Positions 8,570 through 61,240 of a stretch of DNA of 64,000 bases are shown piece by piece (within the stretch, counting starts at the first letter, position 1; each line of letters begins with the position of its first letter). The stretch is from NCBI GenBank assembly GCA_021292105.1, contig CM037860.1:11054698-11118697 (forward strand), given 5' to 3'. The translations under genes and the position numbers were made by a program. The notes below the pieces were generated by a model, which had not been told where the DNA came from, ran no database searches, and saw only the letters and a list, made by a program, of their open reading frames with translations. Source of the DNA: Anadara kagoshimensis. Its lineage: Eukaryota > Mollusca > Bivalvia > Arcoida > Arcidae.

Positions 8570-11300
8570 GCGTTAGTAGTTTATATGTACCTAATTTTTC
8601 CTTGTTCCATTTTCATGTTTTATCACCCTGTCCACACTGGATGTTTTCTGCTAAATTACTTGCAATCGATGAATATATAACGCGTTATTATAGCTAGGAA
8701 AATAAAATTCAATTTCTAAATGCTAATTTAAGGGATAAAATGTATATATCAGATTTACTTAAACGATGTGACGTTGGACTAATATAAATTTGGTATCCCA
8801 ATTATTGAGGGTTTATTATTTTGCTGAATTTCTTGCTTGTGTTAATATATTATTTTTATATACATTTTAAAAACCATACGTACACATGATCTGTATGATA
8901 CCCATTCTGCGCTTTATGGCAAATACAAAGCTACATTGATACTAATTAAATGTTTTTTTTTCTATTTCATTTCCGAATGGTTCTTCACATCATGGCTTAT
9001 GTTATTATTTCAGATCAAAACACGCATTAATTTTAATCTTTTTCTGTTGTACTTGTAACCTTATTTTTCTTTTATATTTAGATAAGAGAAATCGCTCCCT
9101 TGTATAAAACGACATGTATTTACTTTTGTACACAAACATTTTAAAATAATAGGGTTTAGCGATCACCATCCCCAACATTTTAACATCAGTTAAATACAAA
9201 GTTAAATTGTTGTATTTTCAGCATTCTTTTGTGGTCATATGGATGCATGATTTCCTTCTAGATCAACCCAATTACAAATATTGCAATACCAATCAACATA
9301 CGTCAAAGTCAGTGTCCCTAAGGACGCAAGCTTTTTTTGAGACACAAGTTACAAATAAGTATTGCTGTCCGTGTATGTGATGGTGTTTGTTTATAAACCG
9401 AAGTGCCCTAGGACTAATGAACATATCCTTAATATCTCGTAATTGGATTATAACTTGATGGATCAATTTAGCGAATAAATAGTTAAAATATATACGAAAT
9501 GCCGATCATGTTTGCTTCACAAAAGACACACGCAATTCCATCACGTCAACAAAATAGACTTTAGTTAAAAAATCTCCATTTGTAGAAGACCGCTGTTTGC
9601 AAGTTGTGACTGGAGATTGATTGGCGCTTTATCCTTCATCAGTTATTATTTCGAATTATATGGCTTATCTCGCCAGTTATCCTTTTACCTTTACAGATTA
9701 GTTTTTACGTAGCTTAGTTATAATTCCTGTTCGTAACAACAACAACATCCATCAAACAATCTAAGAGGACTAAGTACTGTCATAACAAATCAACTGCCGA
9801 GCTGACGATGAATTTTAAATGCAAGAAAACAGAACACCAGGTGCAAAAGCATATTCTTGTTATTACAATGGTCATCTTAGATCAAGCTATTCGTTATCAA
9901 TAACCATGAAAATCAACTGAACAAGTGAGAAGCCATTCGAATTGAAACGTATTTATCTTGAAATGCATCAATTCCTAGTACCTTGTGAATGAAAGAAATG
10001 CAAGAAAGGCTAAACGATGAAAGAAACACGTATTGGAACTTGATATTATAAAACTTAAATTTTTAGAAAGGCACTTTGTAATGACGTAAATTGCAAAGTA
10101 GACTGATTATAGTACAACTGGAGGCCGCAAATCTATTTTACTTATTTATCTCGACTCGACCTGTAATCGACATATGATAGCTACCTTTAGGTAGCGTTTT
10201 AGCTATACCTGTAATCGACATATGATATCTACCTTTAGGTAGCGTTTTAGCTATACCTGTAATCGACATATGATATCTACCTTTAGGTAGCGTTTTAGCT
10301 ATACCTGTAGTCGACATATGATATCTACCTTTAGGTAGCGTTTTAGCTATACCTGTAATCGACATATGATCTACCTTTAGGTAGCGTTTTAGCTATACCT
10401 GTAATCGACATATGATATCTACCTTTAGGTAGCGTTTTAGCTATACCTGTAATCGACATATGATATCTACCTTTAGGTAGCGTTTTAGCTATACCTGTAG
10501 TCGACATATGATATCTACCTTTAGGTAGCGTTTTAGCTATACCTGTAATCGACATATGATATCTACCTTTAGGTAGCGTTTTAGCTATACCTGTAATCGA
10601 CATATGAGATCTACCTTTAGGTAGCGTTTTAGCTATACCTGTAATCGACATATGAGATCTACCTTTAGGTAGCGTTTTAGCTACTGGCTATCCATAGTTC
10701 GGCTACTTGGCTTTGATTTATTTTCGTTAACCTAGTGGTAGACTTTCAACAGGTCTGTACTACTTGCTTCATTATCCAAACTTAGTTATCTGAATATCAA
10801 ACACTAACAATATACTGTTGTACTTTCTGTACTAGGACCAATCGATGGAAACAGTTTTATAAATTAATGACTATTTTGTCTGAAGGTTACAAGGACATCA
10901 ACAGTGGTTTCTCGATAAATAAATGTAATGACAAAAGAATTAAACATAAAAATATATGTTAATGGCCAAAGATATGAATTAGGTACATACTCACGAAGCG
11001 TTTGAATTATAATGTACATAAAAAAAAAAAAATTAAAGTGTCCACTTTACAAAAATCAGGCACATTTTATAAATTCTTGTTTTGTGAATAACTTATATCG
11101 TATTGGTATTTCTATGAATTGTTTTGCATATTATCAAAGACAACATTTCTCGTCGTCGAAGTAAGTAGCTAGATAGAAGGCGCTCGCCTACCGGACTACC
11201 CGGGTTTACTGGTGGAATAACACGTTTATAGCAGCTAATATGTTGATGTGTTTGTCAAGTTTTTTTCTGTAGTAGTTTTACCATTCAATGTGTTGTGGTC
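8570..11300. repeat. Duplicated non-coding module 1
   Basis: First of about five diverged modules sharing ordered blocks. X is AATTACTTGCAATCGATGAAT..TTATAGCTAGGAAA (8650-8760). Y is GATACTAATTAAATG..CATTTCCGAATGGTTCTTC (8938-9060). V is TTTCTGTACTAGGACC..ATTTTGTCTGAAGG (10820-10900). U is AAAGTGTCCACTTTACAAAA (11036). T is CATTTCTCGTCG (11143). S is GCTCGCCTACCGGACTACCC..ATAGCAGCTAATATGTTG (11180-11250). The module is interrupted by the 48-bp minisatellite. No protein frame is conserved. Confidence 0.7.
10165..10683. repeat. 48-bp minisatellite, 11 copies
   Basis: Units begin at 10165, 10213, 10261, 10309, 10357, 10403, 10451, 10499, 10547, 10595 and 10643. Each carries TCGACATATGATATCTACC, then CTACCTTTAGGTAG (a hairpin with 5-bp arms CTACC/GGTAG) and TTTTAGCTATACCTGT. 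Copies 4 and 8 share a variant with GTCGAC, copy 5 lacks 2 bp, and copies 10 and 11 share a GAGATCT variant. Because 48 is divisible by 3, the minus strand stays open as a 16-residue repeat. The 2-bp deletion breaks that frame, which argues against a protein. Confidence 0.95.
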
Positions 11301-14335: not shown

Positions 14336-15302
14336 TGACGATAAGAATGGCTTAGTTGATCAGTAATATGACTTTGGCTCCAAAAAAAGTTTGGCATCCT
14401 CATCCTTGATCTTCATCCATTACTTTGCGTAGTGTCTGTCTTTGCTCGTGTATTTCTTTTTATAAATTTATAAATCACTTCAAATAAATATGACGTATAT
14501 GTTACTAATTTTATTTGTAGATTTGCGCCTCATTTCAAATACATTGCTATAATCATACTAGTATAAATGAAATGACATTTCTATTTCTTTTTCAAATGTT
14601 ACTTTACATCATGGCATATCCGATTATTCCACATTAAGTTACGCATTAAGTTTATTATTTTACTGTTGTGTTCATCACCATATTCTATTTGTTAATGTAA
14701 ACAGGTGAATTCATTTTGGTTTTTTAAAACAGCGGTCATCTTGGAGGCATGATTTGCCTGTAGATCAATCCCAATCAAATAATTCAAATTACAAATCAAC
14801 AGACTTAGTAAATGCATGTATGGACGCAAACTTATCTTTCACATGCAAAGACAATAAATCGTCTGCGCTGAACGCGTTATCCATCCGTGGATGTGATGGC
14901 GTTGAACAAAGCAAAATATATTATATATCCCCTCCCTGAGAACTAATGTATATTCCTTAAATATCTCATAATCGGATCTTAACGGATGAATCAATTTAGC
15001 ATTTAGAGAATAAAATGTTAAAATAAGTTTAAGTATTTTGTTTACTTCATTTTCCTAGTTTTAGTTATTTTAAATTATGAATATCAAACATTCATGAAAA
15101 TCTTTTGTACTTTCTGTACTTAGACCCATCGGGGGAAAACAGTTTTAGAAATTGATGACTATTTAGTCTGAGGATTACAAGACTTGGCTTATCTTGAACG
15201 TCAGCAGTGGCTTCTCGATAAATAAATGTATTGACAAAGCAATTAATCAAACACAAACATATAGGTTAATGGCCAAAGAAACGATTTTTCTACATCTGGG
15301 AA

Positions 15303-15420
15303 ATATTTTGCTTCATAATTTTGGTCCAAGCACTACCTAATGATGGGGAATTGTGTTCCGAAACGGCCGTGTAGTGCTGAAAAATTAAAACCTGTATAAT
15401 ATGTAATGAGTTACATGTTA
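15303..15420 (+). mobile_element. Degenerate hammerhead-ribozyme repeat (retrozyme relic)
   Basis: Relative of the 339-bp repeat at 58782, here with the ribozyme on +. The ribozyme region is 15329-15378: stem I arms AGCACTA and TAGTGCT, then CTAATGA where CTGATGA is required, GAAA, ACGGCCGT and the cleavage triplet GTG instead of GTC. Both core changes are expected to abolish self-cleavage. The flanking ATTTTGGTCCAAGCACTA and TATAATATG phrases confirm family membership. Confidence 0.8.
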
Positions 15421-27299: not shown

Positions 27300-27685
27300 A
27301 CATGAATTACGAAACGGTCGTCTAGGGTTGTAAAATTAAAACTGGTATAATATGCAATTTCTCTGCTGATGGAGGTGATTATGAGGACAACACAAACTCA
27401 GTAGTCAATAATTGTGAGTTATTGTCAGAAAATATTATTGTCTAAATTTGCTGCTAGTTAAAACTTGAAATCTCCCAAAAAATAAGGTATACTCTCTCAT
27501 ACACAGGATTCCCTTAGGTAAATTTGGTAAATATATCTTGATCCTTTGGGTATATTTCAACATCTTGAAAACAAACTTGGTTTCACAATTTTGGTCCAAG
27601 CACTACTGATGAGGAATTGTATTCCGAAACGGCCGTCTAGATCCGTAAAATTTAAACTGGTATAATATGTACTGTATTTACAAAT
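27300..27685 (+). mobile_element. Retrozyme relic: one 315-bp unit between two ribozyme remnants
   Basis: The sequence GAAACGGTCGTCTAG at 27311 and GAAACGGCCGTCTAG at 27626 are the 3' halves of two hammerhead motifs 315 bp apart, on +. Both are followed by GTAAAA and ACTGGTATAATATG. The intervening unit is a diverged version of the 339-bp unit at 58782 (opposite strand). The tandem head-to-tail layout is therefore preserved in an older insertion. Confidence 0.85.
27599..27643 (+). ncRNA. Hammerhead ribozyme motif, core intact, stem I damaged
   Basis: AGCACTA, CTGATGA, stem II GGAATTGTATTCC, GAAA, palindromic ACGGCCGT and the GTC cleavage triplet are all present. After the cleavage site only TAG of the expected TAGTGCT remains, so stem I is reduced to about 3 bp. 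The catalytic core is unmutated, but activity is expected to be weak or absent. Confidence 0.8.
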
Positions 27686-55425: not shown

Positions 55426-55429
55426 TATT

Positions 55430-55475
55430 AGGAATGGTACTTCTGAACGGCCGTTTAGTGCTGTAAAAATAAAAC
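55430..55475 (+). mobile_element. Hammerhead repeat remnant
   Basis: AGGAATGGTACTTCTGAACGG, CCGTTTAGTGCTG and ATAAAACTG preserve stem II, the palindromic stem III and the 3' strand of stem I of the hammerhead family. GAAA has become GAA and the cleavage triplet is GTT. The 5' half of the core is gone. Confidence 0.65.
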
Positions 55476-55479
55476 TGCT

Positions 55480-57195
55480 AAGAAAAGACGCTTGATTTTA
55501 ATCTAATCCATATATTATACCTTCTTCAATACACTAATATATATTAAAATTGAGAATGAACAATCAAATTTGAGGTGCCTTCTGTTTGTGACGTAATGAT
55601 GACGGAATAAATGTCTATTTTACGTTGGTCCGTAATGGGTATATTAAGGGTAGCTTTAAGTTCAGATTGAGTTTAAAAGGATTAGTTTACACTGTTTTTC
55701 CGACATTTTATCATATCAAAATGCATTTCACTTCATTAGTTCATGAAAAAATTTCTGCAATCCAATAATGCTAAAACCATTCTGTCATAGAACTGCACTA
55801 AAAAATTACGTCGTCACCATGTCACATAAAATACCCCTCCATTTTGTAATTATTTACCATTGTAAACGCGTACTCATATCCATTTTCTCGCCTAAAAGGG
55901 AGATATAAAACAAGGATGAAACTGAAAAACAGGGCCTTTCAGCATTAACACAGCTCGTGTACCAGGTAGGACAGTAAAACAATAATAGAATTTAGCCTGT
56001 CCCATTAAAAACCTGTTCCCGTTTTTTTTTCTCTGACGTACTCATAAAACTCTTCAATGCTTACAAAAAAAACAATCTAGATATTGGCTAAACAAGAAAC
56101 CATTTAAATGATTAAGCGCATTACTTAATCAAGTTGACATTGCGACAACTTTTTTGCCTGATAAAGTTTAGTTAATATATCTTCAAACTTGTAACCATAG
56201 CATTTCGTTGCTTTCCAGACAATTAAGTTATATATGTTATTTCATAATATCTAGTGAGTTAGCAATGAAAAGTCTTCGGAGTTGTCAATTAAAAGGCCGT
56301 TGCTATTAAGTACTTGCATTCGTTTAAAAGGTACAAAATTATAAAATGTTGAAAATCCTTAAATATGTATTTACATGTAGTCTTCACAAGCATACATTAA
56401 GCGTACAAAGTAGATAGTATATGCAATGTATAAATAGAATACGATTGCATTTTACAGAAAAACGATAGTATAGTGAACAGGTGGTTATATTAAATGATCT
56501 ACGAGCTATTTTCATTTATATGATAATACAATTACTTCTGGTTTCATAAATAAAAATAAATTTATTTTTTTTATGTAATAATCATTTTAAATACAAAAAC
56601 CCAAATGTATATGTTTGTATTAACCGAATTCTTTCTCATCATTACTTTATCCCACTATATATGGTATAGCATTACTTTACAACTGAGGACTGCTGGTAAA
56701 AACGTGACTAGCTATTTACAGACGGAGCAGACGTATTTACAGATAGAAATTAGAAAATAAAATAACATAAAATTACATAATAATAACAAATAAATTATTA
56801 AGCGTAATACAATTGTCTTGAATAATGTTTATCAAAGAAGCTGTCATTTTAATAATTAAATTTAAAGATTTTTGCATCCAGTAACGTAGCAATATTTTCA
56901 TGTAAACAACTGCGATGTAAATAAATATGACCATAAATCTAAACGAAGGTATTTTCTTGTTTTCACACAAACACAATTATTCTATTTTCGATTGAAATAG
57001 CAATCATTAGTGTCTATATAAAGTTTAAAGTGTTTTGGAATTTGGTTGGTTGACAACATTTAATGTTTTTATATTGAGGTTATCTAAGGCTAATTAAGAA
57101 TCACTATTATCGCGTTGCACACCCATTTTTCTGAAACTTTATACCTATATAGGTGATATATATGTATGCGTATAAAATAATTTTTGACTTAAGGT
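55480..57195. other. Intronic stretch, nothing recognised
   Basis: AT-rich. A short GTGACGTAATGATGACGG patch with CRE-like half-sites is near 55590. No exon is seen. Confidence 0.4.
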
Positions 57196-58130: not shown

Positions 58131-58807
58131 GATTTTGTATTCTAAATGTGTCCTTAAAGTAAAAACACATGGCTGTTTTTAAAATGCTAGTTCTTAGGAA
58201 AGTGTAACTAGTGTATTATTAAAGAAAAATGCTATTCCAAACTGTCCAAAGTGAGAAATTGAAAATCGAAAAGCGACAGTCTGACACGCAAAGTTTACAA
58301 GCGTACCGAAATAAACGGAATGTGATAGTTGTATTTGTAACATGTTACCTTCGATCACGTAATATTGTTGTAGTCAATACGGCCTTATTTATCTTTTCCT
58401 TTGATTACTAATGCAACAAATTGATACCTTAGGGCGAATTTGTAATTGTATCATCTTGGAAAAAGTTGTTTACTTGACATGCAATATGGTTCATTCCTTT
58501 TTTAATTAGGGTTTAAAAGCCGTATTTAAATTATTAACAAATGTATTCATATATGTCCTGTTTTTATTCTTAAACCAGATTGTATCCGATGGCATATGCA
58601 TTATGTATTTATTTTGTATGAATTAATTGTTTGAACTAATTTGTTTATGTCACTTCAGCTTTGGATATTATATATGTATTATTTATGAACACTAAAATTA
58701 ACACATGGATGAAATGCGGCCAATATAATGATGAATGGCCATATGAAAATAACTAAATTGTTAATTGATGCATATCTATTTACATATTATACCAGTTTTA
58801 ATTTTAC

Positions 58808-58853
58808 AGCACTAGACGGCCGTTTCGGAATACAATTCCTCATCAGTAGTGCT
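58808..58853 (-). ncRNA. Type I hammerhead ribozyme, copy 1
   Basis: Read on the minus strand: stem I 5' strand AGCACUA, core CUGAUGA, stem II GGAAU-UGU-AUUCC (5 bp, 3-nt loop), GAAA, stem III as the palindrome ACGGCCGU, cleavage triplet GUC, then UAGUGCU, which pairs exactly with the 5' strand. All conserved core bases are present. The predicted cut is between positions 58815 and 58814. The very short stem III is typical of metazoan Penelope- and retrozyme-type hammerheads, which are thought to act as dimers. Confidence 0.9.
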
Positions 58854-59146
58854 TGGACCGAAATTATGAAACCAAAATTATTTTGAAGATGGTGAAAAGC
58901 TACCCAAAGGACCAAAATATATTTTACCAAATTAAGCTAAGGAAATACTTTGCATGAGGAAGTATTCCTTAGTTTTTGAGAAATTTCAAATTTTAACTTG
59001 CAGGAAATTTAGACAATTAAAGTATATTTCTGACAATAATACGAAATTATTGCCTACTGAGTTGGTGATATCCTCGGGGCACCAGCCACCAGCAGAGATA
59101 TCGGCTCAGGGGTTTTAATTACATATTATACCAGTTTTAATTTTAC

Positions 59147-59192
59147 AGCACTAGACGGCCGTTTCGGAATACAATTCCTCATCAGTAGTGCT
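59147..59192 (-). ncRNA. Type I hammerhead ribozyme, copy 2
   Basis: Same sequence and fold as copy 1, offset by 339 bp. Predicted cut between 59154 and 59153. Cleavage at both sites would release one 339-nt RNA (59153 down to 58815) with termini suited to circularisation. Confidence 0.9.
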
Positions 59193-59485
59193 TGGACCGA
59201 AATTATGAAACCAAAATTATTTTGAAGATGGTGAAAAGCTACCCAAAGAACCAAAATATATTTTACCGAATTAAGCTAAGGAAATACTTTGCATGAGGAA
59301 GTATTCCTTAGTTTTTGAGAAATTTCAAATTTTAACTTGCAGGAAATTTAGACAATTAAAGTATATTTCTGACAATAATACGAAATTATTGCCTACTGAG
59401 TTGGTGATATCCTCGGGGCACCAGCCACCAGCAGAGATATCGGCTCAGGGGTTTTAATTACATATTATACCAGTTTTAATTTTAC

Positions 59486-59520
59486 AGCACTAGACGGCCG
59501 TTTCGGAATACAATTCCTCA
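59486..59520 (-). ncRNA. Truncated hammerhead, third copy
   Basis: Stem I 3' strand, cleavage triplet, stem III, GAAA and stem II are present, but the array ends within CUGAUGA (only UGA remains). The upstream stem I strand is absent, so it cannot cleave by itself. The truncation marks the 5' end of the inserted RNA if the minus strand is the transcript. Confidence 0.85.
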
Positions 59521-60886: not shown

Positions 60887-61240
60887 ATCAAAAACAAACA
60901 TACTTATCCATGTTCGAATCACAATCCAGAATAAAGTAAAAACTTTGAAACTGACAAGTGAGGCTACACACGTGAACTTTCACCAGGGAAGTGATGCCGG
61001 GTGCTCCGGGAAGGATAAGCACCTCTTGTTTAGCTAGCTACAACCGCCACGTGTGTAATCAAAATTGTGTGAAAGGAACATGGAATTATGAGACGTCAAA
61101 TATATCCAGGGTAAGCTTAGACACAGAGACATCAAACTTGTCAAACTAAACATAAAAAGGAAAGTTTCATAAGAACAAAGAAACAAATCAGCAAGCAATG
61201 GAGCACAGTTTGTACCCATTGGTATACCAATAGTTAATTA
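60887..61240 (-). pseudogene. RT retroelement copy keeping an RT catalytic-region motif
   Basis: On + it begins ATCAAAAACAAACATAC with a well-preserved 3' UTR to about 61140. On the minus strand the RT end is then joined, out of frame, to an upstream RT segment encoding IGIPMGTNCAPLLADLF (ATG at 61219) followed by LCSYETF. This is the region between the two catalytic aspartate motifs of the RT palm (motif 4 type). About 0.6 kb of RT, including the second catalytic block, is missing between the two parts. A stop lies just upstream. It shows that the dispersed tails derive from a genuine RT element. Confidence 0.8.

Follow-up and report, generated by a model that had tools for sequence, protein, structure and literature searches.

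We identified, in the genome of the bivalve Anadara kagoshimensis, a dispersed family of hammerhead ribozyme (HHR) retroelements, or retrozymes, whose insertions end at one common 3′ site just past the ribozyme and begin at scattered 5′ positions. The explanation that we favour, with somewhat better than even confidence, is target-primed, rolling-circle reverse transcription of a circular RNA, started internally by an enzyme of the Penelope-like element (PLE) type. When metazoan retrozymes were defined (Cervera and de la Pena 2020, PMC7229834), neither the priming step nor the helper was settled, and the genomic scars of this family, among them target marks like those of PLEs, offer a testable answer to how retrozymes return into DNA, and by which enzyme. 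What is new here is evidence for the insertion mechanism, within an already known retrozyme class. Our searches of open-licence papers brought up no account of a fixed retrozyme start site, and the text consulted of PMC7229834 describes no fixed 3′ ends.

The window, by which we mean the whole analysed stretch of 64,000 nucleotides, contains a tandem of this family with the features listed below. Unit position 1 is the base that follows HHR cleavage, and numbering runs in RNA sense.

58780..59520, minus strand: retrozyme insertion of 2.2 units of 339 nt, running in RNA sense from unit 312 (59520) to unit 35 (58780)
58815..59153, minus strand: exactly one unit, bounded by the predicted cleavage sites of the two HHRs; would correspond to the 339-nt RNA monomer or circle
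58809..58852, minus strand: complete type I hammerhead ribozyme 1 (RF00163, 28.1 bits, below the gathering score)
59148..59191, minus strand: complete type I hammerhead ribozyme 2 (RF00163, 28.1 bits, below the gathering score)
59487..59520, minus strand: third hammerhead, 5′-truncated and predicted to be inactive; CUGAU and the 5′ stem I strand are missing
58780..58814, minus strand: terminal 'tail', 35 nt, from the HHR cleavage site to the fixed 3′ end
58816..58823, minus strand: stem III of hammerhead 1, self-complementary ACGGCCGU (second copy 59155-59162)

The sequence-only reading of this DNA had reported an exact 339-bp period with near-identical units, and TRF recovers that period at 58780-59520 with 2.2 copies, 99% matches and no indels. 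Aligned to the 339-bp unit, the tandem covers 58777-59520 at 99.6% identity. Its description as a 'young' element also stands, the two window units differing at 2 positions. Two complete type I hammerheads on the same strand had been claimed as well, and Rfam Hammerhead_1 (RF00163) indeed matches twice on the minus strand (E=1.4e-4 each, for 901 bases searched). The curated gathering score of this model is 34, above the 28.1 bits of the window HHRs, and a gathering-threshold scan of the whole window was empty for that reason. The position of hammerhead cleavage is set by the GUC^ rule. Predicted cleavage lies on the minus strand between 58815 and 58814 for the first ribozyme and between 59154 and 59153 for the second, and cleavage at both would free a 339-nt RNA. 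The G+C content of the unit is 34.8% and the longest ATG frame in the tandem is 18 codons in RNA sense and 54 on the other strand. The proposed location in a receptor-gene intron did not find support, as 10 of the 44 window ORFs of at least 80 aa were scanned and yielded no Pfam match at E<=0.01. The tail at 58780..58814 is read as the putative start of reverse transcription.

A genome-wide search for the unit had also been proposed, and it revealed a large dispersed family. In 1,115,223,567 bases on 36 contigs the 38-nt HHR has 11,949 matches with at most 3 mismatches and its reversed control has 0, which excludes a chance origin of the window HHRs; a 27-nt tail probe has 20,448 matches (control 3). 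The fetched loci contain 174 HHRs in 17 forms, with overlapping loci counted repeatedly, and the ribozyme is nearly invariant among them. The feature almost certainly belongs to the known class of metazoan non-LTR retrozymes, as had been suggested from sequence: each unit bears a type I HHR on the same strand (RF00163 twice, below the gathering score), the tandem units of 339 bp and 34.8% G+C fall within the 150-450 bp and low G+C of the class, and the copies are dispersed in thousands and non-coding, with ATG frames of at most 54 codons. The retrozymes of Acropora, Mytilus and axolotl are likewise low-G+C tandems of 150-450 bp with type I HHRs in thousands of copies, whereas the present family has its own sequence and a 339-nt unit (PMC7229834). 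The insertions that we mapped in samples 1 and 2 (see below) consist of tandem units, and no other terminal repeat was seen.

The common 3′ end was established in three samples. Sample 1 comprised 39 arrays of at least 230 bp from the window, the 30 best-match loci and 20 further regions, with overlaps merged and two listed arrays (C9 at 37.0 Mb; C17) left out; the 3′ end lies at unit 36-44 in 38 of them (36/37 without two segmental duplicates). Sample 2, picked by HHR match, comprised 20 single-hit places on contig 1 taken in list order among the 100 HHR matches listed, with four multi-hit places skipped, and 18 of these end at unit 36-39. Sample 3, picked by tail match, comprised 20 exact-tail places without a listed exact HHR, the places at 4.65, 4.84 and 4.87 Mb being passed over. 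All 20 proved to be retrozymes and 19 end at unit 36-41; selection by exact tail keeps ends before unit 36 out of this sample. With alike flanks, L119/L121 and L122/L123 are possibly not independent, and L113 had its end assigned by visual inspection. Pooled, 75 of 79 copies end at the common site. Of the remaining four, L052 stops at unit 19 and L059 at unit 325, L116 reads on, and L040 (around G000:C16:42700972-42701310), alone among the sample-1 arrays, has its 3′ end precisely where the HHR would cleave, at unit 339. L040 thus looks like a copy begun at the 3′ end of a cleaved linear RNA.

Tail-only insertions occur in sample 3 (L115, 30 nt; L120, 36 nt; L118, 58 nt). Six pieces of 27-119 nt, below the 230 bp of sample 1, lie outside it: only L013 (27 nt, tail-only) ends at the site, at unit 37, and the other five, 72-88% alike, stop off it. 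Further pieces within sample-2 loci end at unit 17, 187 and 41, all three in L054, at unit 289 in L068, where the piece is nested, and at the locus edge in L056. Across 86 units the tail is the least variable part, at 0.45% of cells versus 1.1% in the HHR and 1.34% elsewhere; unit 5 of L022 was excluded from this comparison and from the private/shared column count given below. Identity in 13 hand-picked divergent copies is 91.2% in the tail, 88.1% in the HHR and 86.1% in the rest, a weak difference to which local-alignment end effects possibly contribute. The family shares with PLEs an insertion 3′ end at a set distance, the tail, past the HHR.

Target-primed reverse transcription characteristically leaves copies that share one 3′ end and are truncated to different extents at the 5′ end. 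We examined 5′ ends in 54 insertions, 36 from sample 1 (without L031, L033 and L040) and 18/20 from sample 2; given this composition, the 5′-end and flank tests cover site-ending copies only. Their distribution around the unit does not differ significantly from a uniform one (KS p=0.30, n=54). Post hoc, 7/54 fall at unit 63-69 and 23/54 at unit 63-127, above even spacing. Part of unit 63-127 is a hairpin in the predicted structure, which may slow the enzyme. The array L028 (G000:C7:19705470-19706147) has its 5′ end at unit 337 or 1, preceded by 3-6 extra bases and otherwise blunt, and this could be run-off at the HHR-made 5′ end. L027 at C7:23450089 is an array like L028.

The base that follows unit 36 is T in 43 of the 54 insertions (background 0.33, p=1.6e-12), and one or two bases of target pairing may therefore help the start. 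Flank comparison at 25, 40 and 120 nt showed no general target-site duplication. For 25-nt flanks, where the test kept 37 of 45 arrays, the mean best match is 4.41 versus 4.57 in mispaired flanks; at 40 nt and at 120 nt, 5/54 insertions each exceed the 95% level of mispaired flanks, mostly in host repeats. The clearest of these cases, L053, lies inside a 32-bp host tandem repeat. Eight of the 54 insertions are in repeats for which uninterrupted copies exist among the fetched sequences, at most 4 host copies being compared per insertion. Read by eye, these empty sites indicate a duplication of 6-7 bp at L030, of up to 6 bp at L039 and of 0-1 bp at L035; none at L028, which has the 3-6 extra bases at its 5′ junction; a deletion of 3-4 bp at L014 and of 2-4 bp at L057, where the host copy is merely 67% alike; and either a 3-bp deletion or a 29-bp duplication at L053. 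The comparison for L061 was unreadable. Target-site duplications of metazoan non-LTR retrozymes are given as more than 4 bp, if present (PMC7229834), and in the Penelope PLEs of a rotifer (Adineta) the target is either duplicated over 8-10 bp or shows microhomology with no duplication (PMC3846280).

Variation within arrays bears on the template. Among 87 full units the mean divergence is 0.96% within arrays versus 2.5% between them, and 56 of the 70 units of multi-unit arrays have their nearest neighbour in their own array, ties being counted as own-array. The eight arrays of at least four units contain 65 varying columns private to one unit and 7 shared (gap columns included); seven of these arrays have at most one shared column, and L023 holds 5 of the 7. 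Five three-unit arrays with 38 further varying columns were left out of the count, because a two-state column there is private by arithmetic. The private variation resembles what repeated copying of a single circle would leave. We judge rolling-circle copying from one internal start to be fairly likely. Mixed units are expected from a linear multimer of an old array and not from a recopied RNA circle, which argues for one template per array.

It is unlikely that the template is an uncleaved linear multimeric transcript that ends at unit 36, which would make a circle unnecessary. The common 3′ end could equally be the end of such a transcript, and the purified Anolis PLE reportedly used unprocessed RNA in vitro, with its HHR dispensable for insertion (PMC11167929). 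A few arrays are moreover nearly as varied inside as between: L036 varies by 2.2% inside versus 2.7% against others, and L023 and L047 vary by 1.7% and 1.8% inside. However, a transcript of an old array is expected to carry that array's unit differences, yet L006, L014, L030, L037, L038 and L044 diverge internally by 0 to 0.2%, and the near absence of shared columns in 7/8 of the longer arrays likewise speaks against it.

As to the helper, we think it probable that the family uses a PLE-type enzyme. A GIY-YIG search of the genome gave 50 places, and the four PLE frames tested contain RVT_1, GIY-YIG or both. From 40 fetched PLE regions we obtained 32 copies in five families in which the ORF is followed by a minimal HHR-like motif, in some copies with core changes. 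The common sequence stops approximately 29-42 nt past the HHR-like motif in family A (12 copies, including two segmental pairs), 44 or 90 nt past it in family B (7 copies), 32 or 90 nt in family C (7 copies), 44 nt in family D (3 copies) and 64 nt in family E (3 copies). These distances were read off the sequences, since a crude end-caller overshoots at TA runs and fails on two C copies. For the PLE frame L089, the animal sources named among the 120 matches listed of 2036 include Mytilus, Pinctada and Saccostrea, and the other names belong to bivalve-symbiont records; this fits a bivalve-like mollusc. The PLE coding stretches L080/L081, L082/L083 and L077/L078 form opposite-strand pairs approximately 2-2.5 kb apart, an inverted layout known from PLEs.

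The recurring PLE ends resemble the two start sites and the optional 30-40 bp 'tail' of the purified Anolis PLE, an enzyme that initiates within its RNA and favours ATT in AT-rich DNA (PMC11167929). A word search of the main text of that paper gave no mention of retrozymes or circles. In Anolis PAc (PMC11167929) and Adineta Penelope (PMC3846280), PLEs with minimal HHRs, the ribozyme is likewise followed by a short tail and then the insertion end, and AT-rich targets, tandem copies and short or absent target duplications are also common to them and the present family, for which an internal copying start like theirs is proposed. In contrast to PLEs, which encode RT and GIY-YIG, the retrozyme unit has no long frame. 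It thus lacks the ORF for a telomerase-like RT and GIY-YIG by which an autonomous PLE is recognised; it works like a PLE passenger and is not itself a PLE. The PLEs of the same genome have other tails, most of those in families A-D running, by eye, into TA repeats, unlike the retrozymes, where a search of the 30 nt next to the insertion found (TA)5 at the 3′ end in 0/54 and at the 5′ end in 1/54. Families A-D are therefore improbable as the helper. Family E lacks such a TA run, and its tail is unlike that of the retrozyme. The commonest PLE HHR motif, GAAAGCGCTA, joined to the end of the retrozyme tail has 0 matches in the genome, and none of the 20 tail-selected places holds a tail outside retrozymes; a PLE with the retrozyme tail was not found.

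Elements mobilised by LINEs typically have a common 3′ end and 5′ truncation as well, and to that extent a LINE-type (non-PLE) retrotransposon fits as helper. We consider this improbable: the sampled 3′ junctions have no common poly(A) or short-repeat tail (the duplicates L031/L032 run into GATA repeats), target duplications are short or absent, and copying seems to begin inside the RNA past the hammerhead, as in the PLEs of the same genome.

Arrays may also have changed after insertion. L033 and L034 have flanks in common and hold 3 versus 4 full units, so that the unit number can change later. The longest array, L038, has 11 units in 3.9 kb at 0.16% divergence; with an even chance of stopping and a mean copying run of ~280 nt, a rough estimate, this length is hard to reach, and some arrays may thus have grown subsequently. 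In the five units of L023 (G000:C16:11929252-11930976), 3 of the 5 shared variable columns alternate as ABABA. This pattern would result from a circle of two units and equally from duplication of two units at a later time; L023 may even record a two-unit circle. On such grounds one could suppose that one- to two-unit insertions were expanded by unequal crossing-over with rolling-circle copying uninvolved, since L038 and the alternating L023 could stem from later duplication and the pair L033/L034 points to changes of unit number. As a general account we find this rather improbable. Crossing-over should leave variants shared by several units, yet 7/8 arrays have at most one such column, although a very early burst would escape this test; moreover, arrays of all lengths have one and the same 3′ end.

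Lastly, an ordinary immobile satellite repeat with a hammerhead-like motif, to which the tandem layout and the Rfam score under the gathering cut-off would point, is extremely improbable, because it conflicts with the way the insertions are built: copies are dispersed in their thousands and share a 3′ end, some are 5′-truncated singles, and empty sites exist in unrelated host repeats.

For target-primed rolling-circle copying we propose the following course, in which we infer cleavage, circularity and the enzyme. Tandem copies would be transcribed from the minus strand. By analogy with the known class, paired hammerheads would cut the transcript into 339-nt monomers, which a host RNA ligase would close into circles. 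A Penelope-type reverse transcriptase/endonuclease would then open an AT-rich target and begin copying inside the circle at a point ~36 nt beyond HHR cleavage in the downstream direction, aided by 1-2 A:U pairs. Copying would halt after a variable distance: a short run would leave a stub of 30-300 nt with the common 3′ end, and a long run would circle repeatedly to give a tandem array. As copying would start just past the ribozyme, any insertion longer than ~75-80 nt should bear a whole hammerhead when made.

Stem III of the HHR is the palindrome ACGGCCGU, which would allow two hammerheads to pair. The fold of a single-motif hammerhead has −6.2 kcal/mol with stem III and −7.0 without it, and a single-motif misfold has −10.7 kcal/mol (twice, −21.4). 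The double hammerhead of two copies reaches −31.3 versus these single-strand folds, from which dimer-dependent cleavage of the retrozyme HHR is predicted. The fold energy of the 339-nt unit is not unusual (z=−1.2). In the predicted circle 6/6 pairs of stem I and 5/5 of stem II form (mean probability 0.62 and 0.59), so an active monomer could reopen the circle; a dimer-only ribozyme would keep the monomeric circle closed. A weak, palindromic stem III places the family nearer to the amphibian HHRs than to other metazoan retrozymes; the amphibian HHRs have a weak palindromic helix III and act as dimers, and for the class the question has been raised why HHR circles persist (PMC7229834). Dimer-only cleavage, if true, would explain the survival of HHR circles in animals.

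The hammerhead satellites of newt and axolotl are likewise tandems of ~330-350 bp with type I HHRs and a weak palindromic helix III (PMC7229834). They differ in sequence and host, and the dimer requirement is a prediction for the present family. Plant LTR retrozymes are likewise non-autonomous, and theirs is an HHR-processed circular RNA of the kind that we suppose here (PMC7761336). Their HHRs are of type III, their units measure several hundred bp, and they possess LTRs, PBS and PPT together with 4-bp duplications (PMC7761336; PMC7229834), whereas here the HHRs are of type I and terminal repeats outside the tandem were not seen.

We tentatively extend the proposal, at a little under an even chance, to metazoan retrozymes in general: a PLE-type enzyme would bind the conserved tail of a small RNA circle and copy from a fraction of a turn to many turns, starting ~36 nt past the ribozyme, and, because stem III is weak and palindromic, multimers would be cut through dimers whereas the monomer circle would stay closed. 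If true, this would unite the literatures on small ribozyme circular RNAs and on internal initiation by PLEs, and a small circular RNA would be a natural template for target-primed DNA synthesis.

The window also contains three older copies of the family, which had gone unnoticed in the sequence-only reading, as had the nature of the array end as a family-wide 3′ terminus.

27303..27671, plus strand: older copy at 80% identity (unit 320 to 34), terminating close to the family-wide 3′ site
27600-27643, plus strand: HHR of that copy; core and stems II and III identical
15286..15407, plus strand: older 5′-truncated copy, 84%, unit 256 to 36; broken HHR; family-wide 3′ end
55427..55480, plus strand: older fragment, 83%, unit 311 to 25; match ends short of the family-wide end

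In the copy at 27303-27671, 18 bases (unit 38-55) are absent directly after the family-wide start site, which suggests that its two turns were separate runs or that a deletion occurred. Elsewhere in the genome, two opposite-strand pairs of retrozyme HHRs have the same 857-base spacing (G000:C1:42916471/42917328 and G000:C1:43123979/43124836) and are probably a segmental duplication of one inverted pair. The window further contains a 48-bp tandem repeat at 10159-10683 (11 copies, 97%), and a minus-strand ORF at 61034-61237 that includes IGIPMGTNCAPLLADLF, which we take to resemble a reverse-transcriptase fragment.
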